Assembly: GCF_003626755.1 (NCBI RefSeq)
Contig: NZ_RBCJ01000005.1
Location: forward strand, 310,001 to 374,000
Direction: 5' to 3'
From: Ulvibacterium marinum
GTDB lineage: Bacteria; Bacteroidota; Bacteroidia; Flavobacteriales; Flavobacteriaceae
Length of the DNA stretch: 64,000 bases
A program made the translations under genes and the position numbers. Positions 5,048-22,622 of this stretch are shown here, piece after piece (positions within the stretch are counted from its first letter, which is position 1; each line of letters starts with the position of its first letter). Below the pieces are notes generated by a model. That model worked only from the letters and a program-made list of their open reading frames with translations. It searched no databases and was not told the origin of the DNA.

Positions 5048-5101
5048 TCAATAAAGGTTTTTGTTTAAAATTGTCAATTCCATAAAAATTGATCCGAACA
5101 T

Positions 5102-5131
5102 TTGATTGGGTTGCTAAAAGTACTACATTTG
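5102..5131 (+). promoter_or_regulatory. Promoter of the thr operon (TTG-N19-TACATTTG)
   Basis: TTG at 5102-5104 and TACATTTG at 5124-5131 are exactly 19 bases apart. This is a perfect match to the Bacteroidota housekeeping promoter (TTG-N19-TAnnTTTG). It predicts a start near 5138 and an untranslated leader of about 175 bases before thrA. A second isolated -7 match (TACCTTTG, 5210-5217) lies downstream but lacks a -33 TTG at the usual distance. Confidence 0.65.
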
Positions 5132-5174
5132 AACCTATCTAAGAAGGGTGCTTTTTAACAAGTAGGACAAACAA

Positions 5175-5240
5175 ATGCTAGTTTCTTCATTCAATACATA
5201 TTGTGTTTTTACCTTTGGTATCACCACCCCTTTGGGGTAA
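5175..5240 (+). CDS. Candidate thr operon leader peptide (21 residues)
   Basis: This short frame runs from ATG 5175 to TAA 5238-5240, inside the predicted leader of thrA. Its last eight residues are FGITTPLG. Over 21 residues it has four Thr and one Ile, with three Thr and the Ile among the last nine codons. These are the two amino acids that regulate thr operons in enterobacteria through thrL. The final codons lie inside a hairpin ACCCC-TTT-GGGGT (5226-5238), and GGGTG at 5146-5150 can pair competitively with CACCC at 5225-5229. There is no obvious U-run after the hairpin, so a classical terminator is not shown. The frame could be fortuitous, especially if transcription starts at the downstream -7 motif. 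Confidence 0.4.
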   Translation: MLVSSFNTYCVFTFGITTPLG

Positions 5241-5312
5241 GCAATTCTATATTTGTCCGTTTTCGCATTTTCTATACCTTAACGCAATAGCAAACTTCAA
5301 TCAGTTTATCAA

Positions 5313-7757
5313 ATGAAAGTTTTAAAATTTGGTGGCACATCCGTAGCCAGCGCAAAAAACATAGCCCTTGTAAAGGATATCGTCTCCCAAAGTGATAACC
5401 TTAAAAACATAGTAGTTGTTTCCGCATTTGGGGGAATAACGGACCTACTTTTGCAAGCTGCCCATTTGGCTTCCGAACAGAATGAGAAGTATAAATCTGT
5501 TCTCAAGGACATAGAGGAGCGGCACTTAAATACTATCAAGCAACTAATTCCAGTTCATGGCCAAAGTAGAATTCTTAGCAAGGTAAAAAGTGACCTCAAC
5601 ATATTGGAAACCCTTTTGGAAGGTTCTTACTTAATAGGGGAAATAACTACTAAATTGTCCGATAAAATTGTTAGTTATGGCGAATTGCTTTCATCTTACA
5701 TCATATTCGAATTCTTCAAGCAAGAACAAATGGATGTTACGTACATGGATAGCAGGGAACTGATCAAAACCAATGACCTGAATGAAAAGGCCGTTGTAAA
5801 TTTTGAGGTCACTGATGCGCTTTGTAAAACTTTCTTTGAAAGTGTACAAAAAAGTATTGTGGTCGCCCCTGGATTCATCTCATCCTCGGAAATGGGAAAT
5901 TCTACTACTTTAGGTAGAGGAGGTTCAGATTACACTGCGGCCATTTTCGCAGCGGCCATGAATGCGGATATTTTGGAAATCTGGACAGACGTTAGTGGTA
6001 TGTATACCGCAAACCCCAAACTTGTAAAACAGGCCAAGGCCTTACCCCATATTTCTTATGAAGAGGCTATGGAGCTATCTCATTTTGGTGCCAAAGTGCT
6101 ATACCCGCCAACAATTCAACCCGTGCTTTCCAAGGGGATTTCTATATTGATCAAGAATACCTTTAAACCCGACGATAAGGGCACGCTTATTACCCAAAAT
6201 AAGAATGGCAAGGGCAAGACCGTTCGGGGTATCAGTCATGTGGAGAACATTGCCCTACTTTCTTTGGAAGGTCCCGGCATGGTGGGTATTCCAGGTATTT
6301 CGAAACGTTTTTTTGAAGTGCTTTCCCAAGCAGGTATCAGCGTTGTATTGATTACCCAAGCCTCGTCCGAGCATTCGATTTGTGTGGGTATTTCAGCGGA
6401 GGATACCGATGAGGCCGTGAATACCGTAAATGCCGCTTTTGAATACGAAATTGATAGAAATAGAATTAAACCGGTAATCGCCGAAGGGAACTTGGCCATT
6501 ATTGCCTTGGTAGGTGATAATATGAAAAGTCATCAAGGGTTAAGTGGTAAAATGTTCAGTACTTTAGGGAGAAATAATGTGAATATTCGGGCTATAGCCC
6601 AAGGAGCCTCTGAACGAAATGTTTCTGCCGTAATCAAAAAAAACGATGTAAAAAAAGCGTTGAACGCCCTTCACGAAGAATTTTTTGAAGAGAACATCAA
6701 ACAGTTGAATCTCTTTGTCATGGGGGTTGGCAATGTTGGTTCCAAGTTTTTGAAACAAGTACAGCAGCAGAAAAAGTACTTGAAAGAAAATTTGAAGCTG
6801 AATATCCGGATTATTGGAATTTCAAATTCACGGACCATGGTATTTGATGAGGACGGTATTGCCCTTAAGAACTGGGAAGGACTATTGGAGAAAGGCGAAA
6901 AGGCGGACAAAAATAGTTTTTTTGATACGGTTCAAAAATTGAACTATCGGAACAGCATTTTTGTGGACAATACGGCCAGTGACGAAGTGGCATCCACATA
7001 TGATGCTTACTTGGGCAATAGTATTTCCGTGGTTACCTGTAACAAAATTGCATGTTCTTCGAATTACGAAAATTATCAAGGCCTTAAAAATATGGCCCGG
7101 GAATACAATGCGCCTTTTTTGTTCGAGACCAACGTTGGTGCCGGTCTACCCATAATCGATACTTTAAAACACCTAATAGCATCTGGAGATAAGGTCCTGA
7201 AAATTCAGGCCGTCCTATCGGGAAGTCTTAATTTTGTATTTAACAATTTCAATGATAAGATTGCGTTCCATGATGTTGTTAAACAAGCTCAAGAGGAAGG
7301 TTATACCGAGCCAGATCCAAAAATTGACCTTAGTGGAATAGATGTAATGCGTAAAATTTTGATCTTGGCCAGGGAAAGTGGAAACCGACTGGAAATTGAC
7401 GATATCGAAAATAAATCCTTTCTCCCCAAAGAGAGTCTCGAGACAAAAAGCAATGAAGATTTCTTTGCTTCCTTGAAAAAGTATGAAAATGATTTTCAGG
7501 ATTTGTATACACAAGCCAACGAAGCGGATTGCAAATTAAAATATGTGGCCCAATATGAAGATGGGAGGGCCAGCGTAGGGTTGCAGCAAATTCCAAAAAA
7601 TCATGACTTTTATAATCTACAAGGAAGTGATAACATTGTTCTGTTCTATACGGAACGGTATCCCAATCAACCCATGATCATAAAAGGCGCGGGTGCGGGA
7701 GCTGAAGTAACCGCTTCGGGAATTTTTGCAGATATCATTCGAATTGGGAATTTTTAA
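5313..7757 (+). CDS. thrA: Bifunctional aspartokinase / homoserine dehydrogenase I
   Basis: This fused enzyme catalyses the first step (aspartate to aspartyl-4-phosphate) and the third step (aspartate semialdehyde to homoserine) of threonine and methionine synthesis. The N-terminal kinase begins with KFGGTSVAS and covers about 1-295. Two ACT regulatory domains lie at about 310-460. The NAD(P)-binding homoserine dehydrogenase starts at about 462 with LFVMGVGNVGSKF and runs to the end, including the GYTEPDPKIDLSG segment. The length of 814 residues is normal for ThrA. It is first in thrABC; thrB follows after 46 bases. ACT domains imply feedback by threonine (family knowledge). Confidence 0.96.
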   Translation: MKVLKFGGTSVASAKNIALVKDIVSQSDNLKNIVVVSAFGGITDLLLQAAHLASEQNEKYKSVLKDIEERHLNTIKQLIPVHGQSRILSKVKSDLNILETLLEGSYLIGEITTKLSDKIVSYGELLSSYIIFEFFKQEQMDVTYMDSRELIKTNDLNEKAVVNFEVTDALCKTFFESVQKSIVVAPGFISSSEMGNSTTLGRGGSDYTAAIFAAAMNADILEIWTDVSGMYTANPKLVKQAKALPHISYEEAMELSHFGAKVLYPPTIQPVLSKGISILIKNTFKPDDKGTLITQNKNGKGKTVRGISHVENIALLSLEGPGMVGIPGISKRFFEVLSQAGISVVLITQASSEHSICVGISAEDTDEAVNTVNAAFEYEIDRNRIKPVIAEGNLAIIALVGDNMKSHQGLSGKMFSTLGRNNVNIRAIAQGASERNVSAVIKKNDVKKALNALHEEFFEENIKQLNLFVMGVGNVGSKFLKQVQQQKKYLKENLKLNIRIIGISNSRTMVFDEDGIALKNWEGLLEKGEKADKNSFFDTVQKLNYRNSIFVDNTASDEVASTYDAYLGNSISVVTCNKIACSSNYENYQGLKNMAREYNAPFLFETNVGAGLPIIDTLKHLIASGDKVLKIQAVLSGSLNFVFNNFNDKIAFHDVVKQAQEEGYTEPDPKIDLSGIDVMRKILILARESGNRLEIDDIENKSFLPKESLETKSNEDFFASLKKYENDFQDLYTQANEADCKLKYVAQYEDGRASVGLQQIPKNHDFYNLQGSDNIVLFYTERYPNQPMIIKGAGAGAEVTASGIFADIIRIGNF

Positions 7758-7803: not shown

Positions 7804-8736
7804 ATGCATACCAATAAAATTAAATTATTCTGTCCGGCTACCATCGCCAATATTTCCTGTGGATTTGATGTACTAGGTGTTGCGCTGGATGCCGTTGGGG
7901 ACGAAATGGTAATTCGGAAGGCTAAGGAAAAAGGTATAAAAATTACCAAACTGGAAGGACAGGACTTGCCATTGGAAACCCATTTGAATGTTGCAGGTGT
8001 AGCAGGTATGGCATTGTTGGAACATGTTGATTATGAGGACGGTTTTGAAATAGAGATTTATAAGAAAATCAAGGCCGGAAGCGGGATAGGTAGTAGTGCG
8101 GCCAGTTCTGCAGGAGCCGTTTGGGGCATAAACCAGTTATTGGGCAGACCATTTTCCAATGTGGACCTGGTGAAGTTCGCCATGGAAGGGGAACGATTGG
8201 CCAGTGGTGTTGCCCATGCCGATAATGTTGCCCCAGCCTTGTTGGGTGGATTTACCTTGGTACGTAGTTATGACCCCTTGGATATTATTTCCATACCCAG
8301 CCCTTCCAAATTGTATGCTACGGTAATCCATCCACAAATAGAAGTGAAGACCTCTGATTCACGAAAGATATTGAAGACCAACATTACCTTGGCGGATGGC
8401 ATTAAACAATGGGGCAATGTAGGTGGATTAATTGCAGGGCTTTTCCAAGAAGATTATGAATTGATCGGACGATCATTGGTAGACCATATCGTGGAACCCA
8501 TTCGTTCCATTCTAATTCCAGGATATGACACCATTAAATCCGAATCATTGGAAGCAGGGGCACTGGGTTGTGGAATTTCAGGTTCCGGTCCTTCCATTTT
8601 CGCGTTTAGCAAAGGTGAGACCGTTGCGAAAAGAGTAGCCCATACAATGAAAGAGATATATCAAAAAATAGGGGTCGACTACGATGTACATGTTTCAAGA
8701 ATAAACACATTGGGTATTAAGCCATTAGATCAATGA
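7804..8736 (+). CDS. thrB: Homoserine kinase
   Basis: This GHMP-family kinase phosphorylates homoserine to O-phosphohomoserine. The family ATP-binding motif GSGIGSSAASSAGA is present near residues 95-108, and the C-terminal GHMP motif appears as GCGISGSGPSIFAF near 258. The protein has 310 residues, standard length. Its stop codon overlaps the thrC start (ATGA at 8733-8736), which suggests translational coupling. Confidence 0.95.
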   Translation: MHTNKIKLFCPATIANISCGFDVLGVALDAVGDEMVIRKAKEKGIKITKLEGQDLPLETHLNVAGVAGMALLEHVDYEDGFEIEIYKKIKAGSGIGSSAASSAGAVWGINQLLGRPFSNVDLVKFAMEGERLASGVAHADNVAPALLGGFTLVRSYDPLDIISIPSPSKLYATVIHPQIEVKTSDSRKILKTNITLADGIKQWGNVGGLIAGLFQEDYELIGRSLVDHIVEPIRSILIPGYDTIKSESLEAGALGCGISGSGPSIFAFSKGETVAKRVAHTMKEIYQKIGVDYDVHVSRINTLGIKPLDQ

Positions 8737-10031
8737 ATTTTTACAGTTTAAACGAGAAAGCTCCCAAAGTATCCTTTAAGGATGCGGTTGTCAAAGGCAT
8801 AGCCCCAGATCGTGGATTATATTTTCCGGAAAAAATCACTCCTTTGCCTATTGGATTTTTTGGAGGCATTGAAAGTTTGTCAAATCATGAAATCGCCTTT
8901 AAGGCCATCCATCAATTTGTTAGTGATGATATTTCCGAAACCGCTCTAAACGATATTTTAAAAGATGTTCTAGACTTTGACTTTCCTGTAAATGAACTAG
9001 AGGATAACATAGCGGTACTGGAGCTTTTCCATGGTCCTACTATGGCATTTAAGGATGTCGGCGCCCGATTTATGGCTAGATGCCTCGGGCATTTTTCAAA
9101 AGAAAAGGCCAGTGAAGTTACTGTTCTGGTAGCCACTTCAGGAGATACGGGAGGTGCTGTTGCAAATGGGTTTTTAGGCGTAGAAGGTGTAAATGTTGTG
9201 ATTTTATATCCCAGTGGCAAAGTAAGTGATATTCAAGAAAGACAACTAACCACATTGGGACAAAACATAGTGGCATTGGAGGTAGATGGCACCTTCGATG
9301 ATTGCCAAAAAATGGTAAAGACCGCTTTTTTGGATGCAGAGCTCCTCGAAAACATGCAGTTGACATCGGCCAATTCCATTAACGTGGCCCGATGGTTGCC
9401 CCAAATGTTCTATTTTTTATTCGCTTACAAACAATTGAAATCCAAAAACAAAGAAATTGTATTCTCTGTACCCAGTGGTAACTTTGGAAATATTTGTGCG
9501 GGAATGGTAGCTCAAAAACTGGGGATGCCGGTAAACCATTTTGTAGCATCCACCAATGTAAACGATACCGTACCCCAATTTATGGAATCACAAAAATACG
9601 AGCCTAAACCTTCCACGGCCACCATATCCAATGCCATGGACGTAGGCGACCCCAGTAATTTTATCCGTATACGGCATCTGTATAAGGACAATTTTGATTT
9701 GTTGAAACAGAACCTCTCCTCCTATTCCTTTACGGATATCGAAACGAAAAGAACCATGCTTAAAATTTATATGGAAAATGGATATGTAACGGATCCGCAT
9801 GGTGCCGTAGGTTATTTAGGACTGAAAAAATTTAGGGAAAACCATCCAAATACGTATGGGATTTTTCTGGAGACTGCGCACCCGGTAAAATTTTTGGATG
9901 TAGTAGAGGAGACTTTGGGAAAATCTTTGGAGATACCACCACAAATTCGAAAAGTAATGGATAAGGAGAAAAAGTCCATCAAAATTTCTACGTATCAAGA
10001 AGTAAAAGACTACTTATTGGGCCGGCGGTGA
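8733..10031 (+). CDS. thrC: Threonine synthase
   Basis: This PLP enzyme converts O-phosphohomoserine to threonine. The PLP-binding Lys lies in GPTMAFKDVGARFMA near residue 108, followed by the phosphate-binding ATSGDTGGAVANGFL. At 432 residues it fits the fold type II threonine synthases of Bacteroidota. It overlaps thrB by four bases and is the last gene of the operon. I see no clear hairpin terminator in the 102 bases after it. Confidence 0.95.
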   Translation: MNFYSLNEKAPKVSFKDAVVKGIAPDRGLYFPEKITPLPIGFFGGIESLSNHEIAFKAIHQFVSDDISETALNDILKDVLDFDFPVNELEDNIAVLELFHGPTMAFKDVGARFMARCLGHFSKEKASEVTVLVATSGDTGGAVANGFLGVEGVNVVILYPSGKVSDIQERQLTTLGQNIVALEVDGTFDDCQKMVKTAFLDAELLENMQLTSANSINVARWLPQMFYFLFAYKQLKSKNKEIVFSVPSGNFGNICAGMVAQKLGMPVNHFVASTNVNDTVPQFMESQKYEPKPSTATISNAMDVGDPSNFIRIRHLYKDNFDLLKQNLSSYSFTDIETKRTMLKIYMENGYVTDPHGAVGYLGLKKFRENHPNTYGIFLETAHPVKFLDVVEETLGKSLEIPPQIRKVMDKEKKSIKISTYQEVKDYLLGRR

Positions 10032-22277: not shown

Positions 22278-22310
22278 AATCCTGAGTGAAGCTAAAATTA
22301 AAACTATAAA

Positions 22311-22622
22311 AAAGCAGGCCATAAGCCGAATTCTGTTTCCGTTAATACGGACCCTTATCATTTATCTAGGCTTTTGGTCACCCAAAAGCTCCATCCGCCT
22401 ACCCTTCGGCTTGGGCATGCAACCCTCATAACGCCGGTATATGTGGCGTTTCACCGCATAGAGTTTACCTGATTTCACTACAGCATTATCTGTACATACT
22501 TTCTGTTGCACTGGTCCTTTCCCATATGGTATGGGAAGACGGGCGTTACCCGCTATGCCGCATTATGGTGTCCGGACTTTCCTCCCCCGATAGCTATCGG
22601 GGGCGATAAGGTGACCTGCTCC
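22311..22622 (-). ncRNA. rnpB: RNase P RNA (bacterial class A)
   Basis: Read on the minus strand, the 5' part has GGAGCAGGTCACC, then GAGGAAAGTCCGGACACC (conserved region I) complementary to about 22567-22584. The core includes ACAGAAAGTATGTACAGATA. The 3' end reads ACAGAATTCGGCTTATGGCC-TGC, followed by a T-run at 22308-22313. P1 pairs GCAGGTCA with TGGCCTGC at the two ends, which sets the boundaries at about 22314 and 22619. The P3 helix is a perfect 20-base palindrome (22584-22603). A perfect -7 element precedes the 5' end. RNase P matures tRNA 5' ends. Confidence 0.92.

Follow-up and report, generated by a model that had tools for sequence, protein, structure and literature searches.

Question raised by the leader region

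How transcription might be stopped without the usual terminator is the question raised by the leader of the threonine operon thrABC in Ulvibacterium marinum, a member of the Flavobacteriaceae. The operon lies in a stretch of 64,000 nucleotides (contig NZ_RBCJ01000005.1, positions 310,001 to 374,000 of the forward strand), referred to here as the window, to which all coordinates apply. A sequence-only reading had placed a candidate leader-peptide attenuator in front of the operon, and its elements are compared here with the thrA upstream regions of related genomes (designated by L numbers where they have to be told apart). The features on which the argument relies are collected in Table 1.

Table 1. 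Features of the thrABC locus and its leader (window coordinates)
Feature	Position	Strand	Description
Promoter	5102..5131	+	TTG 5102-5104, 19 nt spacer, TACATTTG 5124-5131; read in sequence
Relic 5' end of ancestral leader frame	5148..5165	+	GTG 5148, four codons, in-frame TAG 5163-5165; from translations of window, L031 and relatives
P1, possible long-range pairing	5165..5171	+	GGACAAA with UUUGUCC 5252-5258; own vs swapped partner z -2.3
Leader peptide frame	5175..5240	+	MLVSSFNTYCVFTFGITTPLG, 21 residues; ATG 5175, TAA 5238-5240; four Thr codons and one Ile codon
P3 hairpin	5226..5238	+	ACCCC 5226-5230, TTT, GGGGT 5234-5238; overlies the last codons and the stop codon
Untranslated spacer	5241..5312	+	C 0.22, G 0.10; candidate Rho-binding region
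AU-rich tract TCTATAT, and CCG	5246-5252; 5257-5259	+	+9..+15 and +20..+22 from the last G of P3; profile of 120 representatives
thrA	5313..7757	+	aspartokinase-homoserine dehydrogenase, named by eye; first gene of the operon
thrB	7804..8736	+	homoserine kinase, named by eye
thrC	8733..10031	+	threonine synthase, named by eye

The locus and a near relative

Genes matching thrA at E <= 1e-50 were found in 184 of 199 genomes of the family, and the nearest relatives of the window's thrA (among the best 80 of 142 loci) include records named Zobellia, Maribacter, Pricia and Pareuzebyella. One locus, L031, comes from an uncultured Flavobacteriaceae record and encodes a ThrA that is 95% identical to that of the window. 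Between 5101 and 5312, five of the 212 leader bases differ between the two, with zero differences over the 152 nt from 5149 to 5300, and the fourfold sites of thrA differ at 110 of 307 positions (35.8%). The sequence 5' of the leader (5048-5100) is also conserved, with two differences in 53 nt. The whole intergenic stretch is therefore constrained, and conservation against L031 alone does not single out the leader. Folding of the leader as a whole is of ordinary energy (z -0.19), so that the argument depends on comparison, and not on stability. Elsewhere in the window, an RNase P RNA of class A is encoded on the minus strand at 22307-22622 (Rfam RF00010, 190 bits).

Occurrence among relatives

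The comparison was based on 177 distinct thrA upstream regions: that of the window, 96 others, and 80 from further genomes of the family. The set covers 110 of the 184 family genomes in which thrA was matched: 30 loci came from the family search itself, and another 80 were chosen from its list, mostly down the ranking. The best 80 of the 142 relatives' loci were added, and 14 regions that were duplicates over the last 200 nt were removed to arrive at the 177. An automatic filter, demanding a short frame whose tail is rich in Thr/Ile codons and which ends in a C3/G3 hairpin, accepts 151 of these regions, from which k-mer thinning yielded 120 representatives. The combination of a Thr/Ile leader frame and an adjoining hairpin ahead of thrABC, proposed at the outset from the window alone, is thus conserved in 151 of 177 distinct Flavobacteriaceae upstream regions.

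Among the 26 rejects, six have the hairpin when inspected by eye (L029, L035, L046, L060, L183 and L199), three (L188, L196 and L200) carry a Thr leader of the classic type, and no such leader is seen in the 210 nt inspected for the remaining 17, some of which lie directly behind another gene and one of which, L134, has a terminator-like site. Judged by eye, the Pricia loci illustrate several fates: L035 keeps the frame and a wobble-paired P3, L046 has a compensated P3 and an early TGA, and L049 has lost the leader. A first impression that the Pricia loci are all losses was given up, as L035 and L046 retain P3.

A covariance model (R1) was built from an alignment of 53 out of 75 candidate relatives, with the window and L031 left out. 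In the 5.9 Mb genome of U. marinum, its single match at E <= 0.01 is the thr leader itself (55 bits, E 3.3e-7, the E-values of this model being rough). Under strict filters, R1 matches 10 of 295 genomes of the class, and given those filters, the non-match in most sampled genomes says little about absence. Six of the ten belong to the family, and the five besides U. marinum all lie before thrA; three of the nine family genomes listed have no match. Four matches fall outside the family: L206 and L209 precede thrA, L210 is judged to be a chance match, and L208, near position 1500 of its locus in a genome of another family, precedes a thrB-thrC operon (genes named by eye). The leader element thus appears to go with the pathway rather than with a single gene.

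Leader frame, control codons and promoter

The earlier reading had located a frame of 21 residues, a hairpin and a GGGTG motif, and all three are found at the stated positions. Over the 15 codons before the hairpin, the Thr plus Ile fraction in the 120 representatives is 0.409 in frame; the other two frames have 0.063 and 0.055, and shuffled sequences 0.154, bearing in mind that the filter required a Thr/Ile-rich tail, which inflates codon counts, and that the frames are open by construction. A fixed register and a codon peak at the hairpin were not asked for by the filter. The codon holding the first C of the hairpin (codon 0) encodes threonine in 120 of 120 representatives, and the share of Thr/Ile codons is 0.85 at codon -1, 0.69 at codons -2 and -4, and 0.65 at codon -5, subject to the same inflation. 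With threonine invariant at codon 0 and the high share at codon -1, the placement of the control codons would let a stalled ribosome affect the hairpin. As judged by comparison, the leader frame looks translated, and the leader-peptide part of the reading is held with high confidence.

The promoter initially described, TTG followed by 19 nt and TACATTTG, is present. A TAnnTTTG promoter type has been named for flavobacteria (PMC9723704), and TACATTTG fits it. Among the 151 accepted leaders, TAnnTTT occurs 60-160 nt 5' of the hairpin in 137, and TTG or TTTT is found 17-26 nt further upstream in 124; a sigma-70 promoter scan is uninformative for the Bacteroidota phylum. An internal TACCTTTG at 5210-5217 is common to the window and L031, and is absent from the other relatives' upstream regions inspected by eye.

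One correction to the earlier reading concerns the 5' end of the frame, which, going by the translations, once began further 5' than ATG 5175. In L031, the old start ATG is intact at the position where the window has GTG 5148, and the same in-frame stop TAG is present. The window's frame is what remains of a longer one of about 30 codons, and translation presumably restarts at the in-frame ATG 5175; the ancestral start is gone and five control codons are left. In L046, the ancestral frame has been separately interrupted by its early TGA (by eye).

The P3 hairpin

In the 120 representatives, the two arms of P3 pair better with their own than with swapped partners (z -6.6, 0 of 3000), a signal that falls to z -3.6, -2.8, -1.6 and -1.3 when the set is thinned to about 52, 30, 12 and 8 sequences. 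The outer pairs vary on both sides, the fourth pair from the loop being C-G in 112 and A-U in 39 of the 151 leaders, and the counts for the three inner C-G pairs are inflated, having been demanded by the filter. In the 53-sequence alignment, 85% of the cells pair at P3, a level reached by 4 of 500 shuffles; pairs with two-sided changes are not above shuffles in this alignment, as 380 of 500 reach their count. Since the signal shrinks with thinning and two-sided changes do not exceed shuffles, P3 rests more on conservation and register than on covariation. It is the only hairpin preserved throughout, and the sole structure returned in the RNAalifold consensus of 91 aligned leaders.

A P3-like pattern, CCCCNNNGGGGTAR, was rejected as uninformative alone, with four matches in the U. 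marinum genome versus six for the reversed control; the match L111 falls within a long coding frame (by eye). In Pricia antarctica (L046), about 75 nt upstream of thrA, P3 has been rebuilt on both sides as AUCCC/GGGAU, and the first hairpin codon encodes isoleucine, not threonine (by eye).

Other pairings in the leader

It had been suggested that GGGTG (5146-5150) could pair with the same CCCC arm, giving two exclusive folds. This alternative is not supported: L031 has GTATG there, two of its five differences falling within the motif, and in 48 representatives the 5' end fits its own CCCC arm at chance level (own vs swapped z +0.25). P1 (GGACAUA with UAUnnGUCC) is weak and confined to near relatives, with 52 of 5000 permutations reaching its score and 27 of 48 sequences above the mean swap. 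P2, a pairing within the frame (CCAUU/AAUGG), is also weak (z -4.0 for the near relatives). Among the relatives' leaders tested, every candidate partner that would exclude P3 failed its controls.

Many relatives, e.g., L171, L128 and L047, have a further small hairpin, P4, about 20-36 nt past P3. Its sequence differs by clade while its pairing is kept, and its loop is often U-rich. An arm-pairing z of -24 for P4 is circular, because each sequence's best hairpin had been taken as its P4, and this value was not used.

A classic intrinsic attenuator, in which P3 would be the 1:2 hairpin, with its 3' arm pairing downstream, and P4, or P1 followed by UUUU, a weak intrinsic terminator, would draw on these observations. 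The P4 pairing is kept in many relatives (z -6.2 in the near set, and, in 83 of 120, a best hairpin lying below its shuffle mean), the 3' arm of P3 fits the 5' arm of P4 above swaps at face value (1 of 3000), and P1 is followed in the window by G and UUUU. Nevertheless, after thinning, the P3-P4 antiterminator pairing is about as strong as the control pairing with the P4 3' arm, so that its signal is not specific; P4 as a terminator was rejected, a U-run of five or more being present within 10 nt after P4 in 6 of 75 sequences, compared with 3 of 120 after P3; and P4 is missing in the window, by the best-hairpin search, and in some other leaders. This explanation is, therefore, considered improbable.

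Downstream of P3: terminators, AU tract and C-rich spacer

The earlier remark that the hairpin lacks a clear U-run agrees with a search of the window between 4800 and 5500, which gave no terminator-like site. Such sites are found in five of the 177 upstream regions: L188, L196, L200, L134 and L011, the latter being an odd match. The first three have strong sites and no P3; within 170 nt upstream of thrA, they carry a classic Thr leader followed by a strong hairpin and a T-run.

The representatives' profile has in this place a tract that is largely alternating U/A and nearly G-free, and then CC(G). The motif [CT]ATA occurs at +6..+14 in 99 of the 120 representatives, compared to 19.4 in shuffles, and 108 of 120 have the tract, defined as an agreement with TATATAT in at least 5/7 letters within the 26 nt that follow P3. 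In these 108, its position varies less relative to the hairpin (sd 2.1 nt) than relative to the stop codon (sd 4.8 nt). The same holds for sequences in which the stop codon is displaced, 56 of 62 having the tract (sd 2.3 to the hairpin vs 6.3 to the stop). The tract thus keeps its distance to the hairpin over that to the stop codon, as expected if RNA polymerase, and not the ribosome, reads the hairpin and tract.

The composition of the leader is also skewed, with more C than G before and after P3 alike in 119 of 120 representatives. In the last 72 nt before thrA, C exceeds G in 118 of 120 (mean C-G 0.105), whereas the figures for other genes are 79 of 122 and 0.023. The 122 control regions come from some of the fetched loci (L031-L120, and L201 onwards) and are not independent, as related species often contribute the same neighbouring gene. 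Within the window, C exceeds G upstream of 13 of the 27 genes, thrA included. A rho gene is present in the genome, and, together with the C-rich, G-poor RNA, it is suggestive of Rho.

Proposed mechanism

Sequence comparison provides the parts of a mechanism: the frame, its control codons, P3, their register, an AU tract tied to P3, a spacer richer in C than in G, and the lack of an intrinsic terminator that recurs across the regions searched. To these parts the model adds translation, stalling, pausing, Rho and a direction of regulation, which are worded conditionally below. As a whole, the model of a Thr/Ile leader-peptide attenuator in which P3 would pause RNA polymerase and Rho would end transcription before thrABC is given an even chance of being correct.

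According to this model, the short frame would be translated, and a shortage of charged tRNA-Thr or tRNA-Ile would make the ribosome stall on the codons before and inside P3, covering the hairpin; P3 would be held open, the RNA shielded, and thrABC transcribed. When the tRNAs are charged, the ribosome would get to the stop codon at P3 and depart, letting P3 fold. The folded hairpin would then act on the RNA polymerase just downstream, stabilising a pause over the AU tract, and Rho could use the exposed RNA, rich in C and poor in G, to terminate transcription before thrA. No role is assigned to P4, the CCG element, or the weak P1 and P2 pairings. The Rho step, which is proposed because of the C-rich composition and the lack of an intrinsic terminator, is put at somewhat below even odds.

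Transcription, and not translation, is suggested as the target because the spacing to thrA is free and the geometry is polymerase-like. The distance from the hairpin to thrA ranges from 51 to 255 nt, being mostly 60-90 nt, and in L023, L075, L110 and L142, some 75-180 nt of extra sequence lies between the leader element and thrA with P3 and the tract still in place. With such spacing, the start of thrA can hardly be the target, and sequestration of this start, as one form of the translational control suggested earlier, becomes unlikely. More generally, a translational attenuation in which the leader ribosome alters access to the thrA start would accord with the absence of a terminator and with the usual spacer length; it is disfavoured by the variable distance over which P3 and the AU tract stay together, and by a linker that shows no pairing preference for the thrA start region of its own sequence over those of others (z +1.6), so that its probability is rated as low.

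Another possibility is a switch of mRNA stability, with P3 and P4 steering cleavage in the AU tract and translation of the leader setting the half-life. The location of the tract between two hairpins in many relatives, and the P4 pairing kept despite clade-specific sequence, would suit such a switch, but the tight placement of the tract relative to P3 (sd 2.1 nt) fits polymerase geometry better and P4 is missing in the window, making it a distinctly doubtful explanation. Finally, a chance frame and hairpin with no regulation, to which the ordinary fold energy and the lost ancestral start might point, is very improbable in view of the presence in 151 of 177 regions, the invariant register and the single genome-wide R1 match.

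Beyond the attenuator with P3 pausing and Rho, a more general and tentative proposal, thought rather unlikely to hold in full, is that of a distinct class of Bacteroidota attenuators. A stalled ribosome would hold open one small hairpin over the leader stop codon, instead of choosing between two folds, and the hairpin would gate pausing at a fixed AU tract, handing the transcript to Rho. In front of this operon, the new class would have replaced the classic U-run attenuator of related genomes, or would alternate with it.

Comparison with known systems

The comparisons indicate a putative sensor of threonine and isoleucine supply that is widely kept in flavobacteria and has no Rfam, NCBIfam or significant Pfam match. 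NCBIfam gave no family for five leader peptides, one of them the phe leader, and among four leader peptides submitted to Pfam, there was one insignificant match (E 0.25). The leader of U. marinum has in common with enterobacterial thrL a short Thr/Ile frame in front of thrABC and control codons that adjoin a hairpin; it differs in having its hairpin over the stop codon, no U-run terminator, and no Rfam match. The latter result is in line with the non-homology in sequence assumed from the start, the Rfam Thr_leader model having no hit between 4500 and 6000 with a cut-off of E 10, and none in the whole window when the gathering score is applied. In E. coli, pauses near the ends of leader peptides, thrL among them, are described as lengthened by NusA, with compensatory hairpin mutants being inconclusive (PMC9291695).

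Among Bacteroidetes, Bacteroid-trp RNA (RF01692) is described as a candidate cis-regulatory RNA (PMC2864571); it has no match in the U. marinum genome or at the thr locus. No Bacteroidetes thr leader is named in the titles or the opening words of the abstracts listed from the literature searched (open PMC papers). For Flavobacterium psychrophilum, leader-peptide attenuation has been proposed before amino-acid operons, with structured 5' elements at pheA and hisG (PMC9723704), and thrA has no occurrence in the main text of that paper. These leaders belong to the same bacterial family as the thr leader and likewise precede amino-acid operons.

Terminator-free leaders have been proposed in mycobacteria, where the control codons of the cys leader peptides lie near the stop codon and Rho acting at pyrimidine-rich sites is suggested; the same paper found neither a terminator-like hairpin nor pyrimidine motifs to be conserved, and names E. 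coli tnaC (PMC1262725). The thr leader belongs to another phylum and concerns another amino acid, and here, the hairpin and the C>G composition are kept. In E. coli tnaC, a ribosome stalled at the end of the leader governs the access of Rho, and the arrest peptide senses free tryptophan. The logic of a stalled ribosome and Rho is alike in the two, Rho being presumed for the thr leader, and the difference lies in the free tryptophan sensed by tnaC: the runs of control codons in the thr leader suggest tRNA charging as its signal.

Material for comparison is also offered by the genome of U. marinum itself. By eye, leaders are found before hisG (L115, HHH), ilvD (L116, reverse strand, Ile/Leu/Val), trpE (L118, WWW) and pheA (L120, reverse strand, Phe/Tyr), each with a hairpin followed by a T5-T6 run (also by eye) and with more G than C. 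The thr leader shares with them a short frame rich in codons for the end product before the operon and, unlike them, has neither the hairpin with a T-run nor an excess of G over C. Four leaders with ordinary terminators in the same genome provide a clean internal comparison for terminator-free leaders. In addition, the classic Thr terminators before thrA in L188, L196 and L200 suggest that the classic and P3 types can replace each other, and this interchange makes the terminator-free mechanism directly testable.
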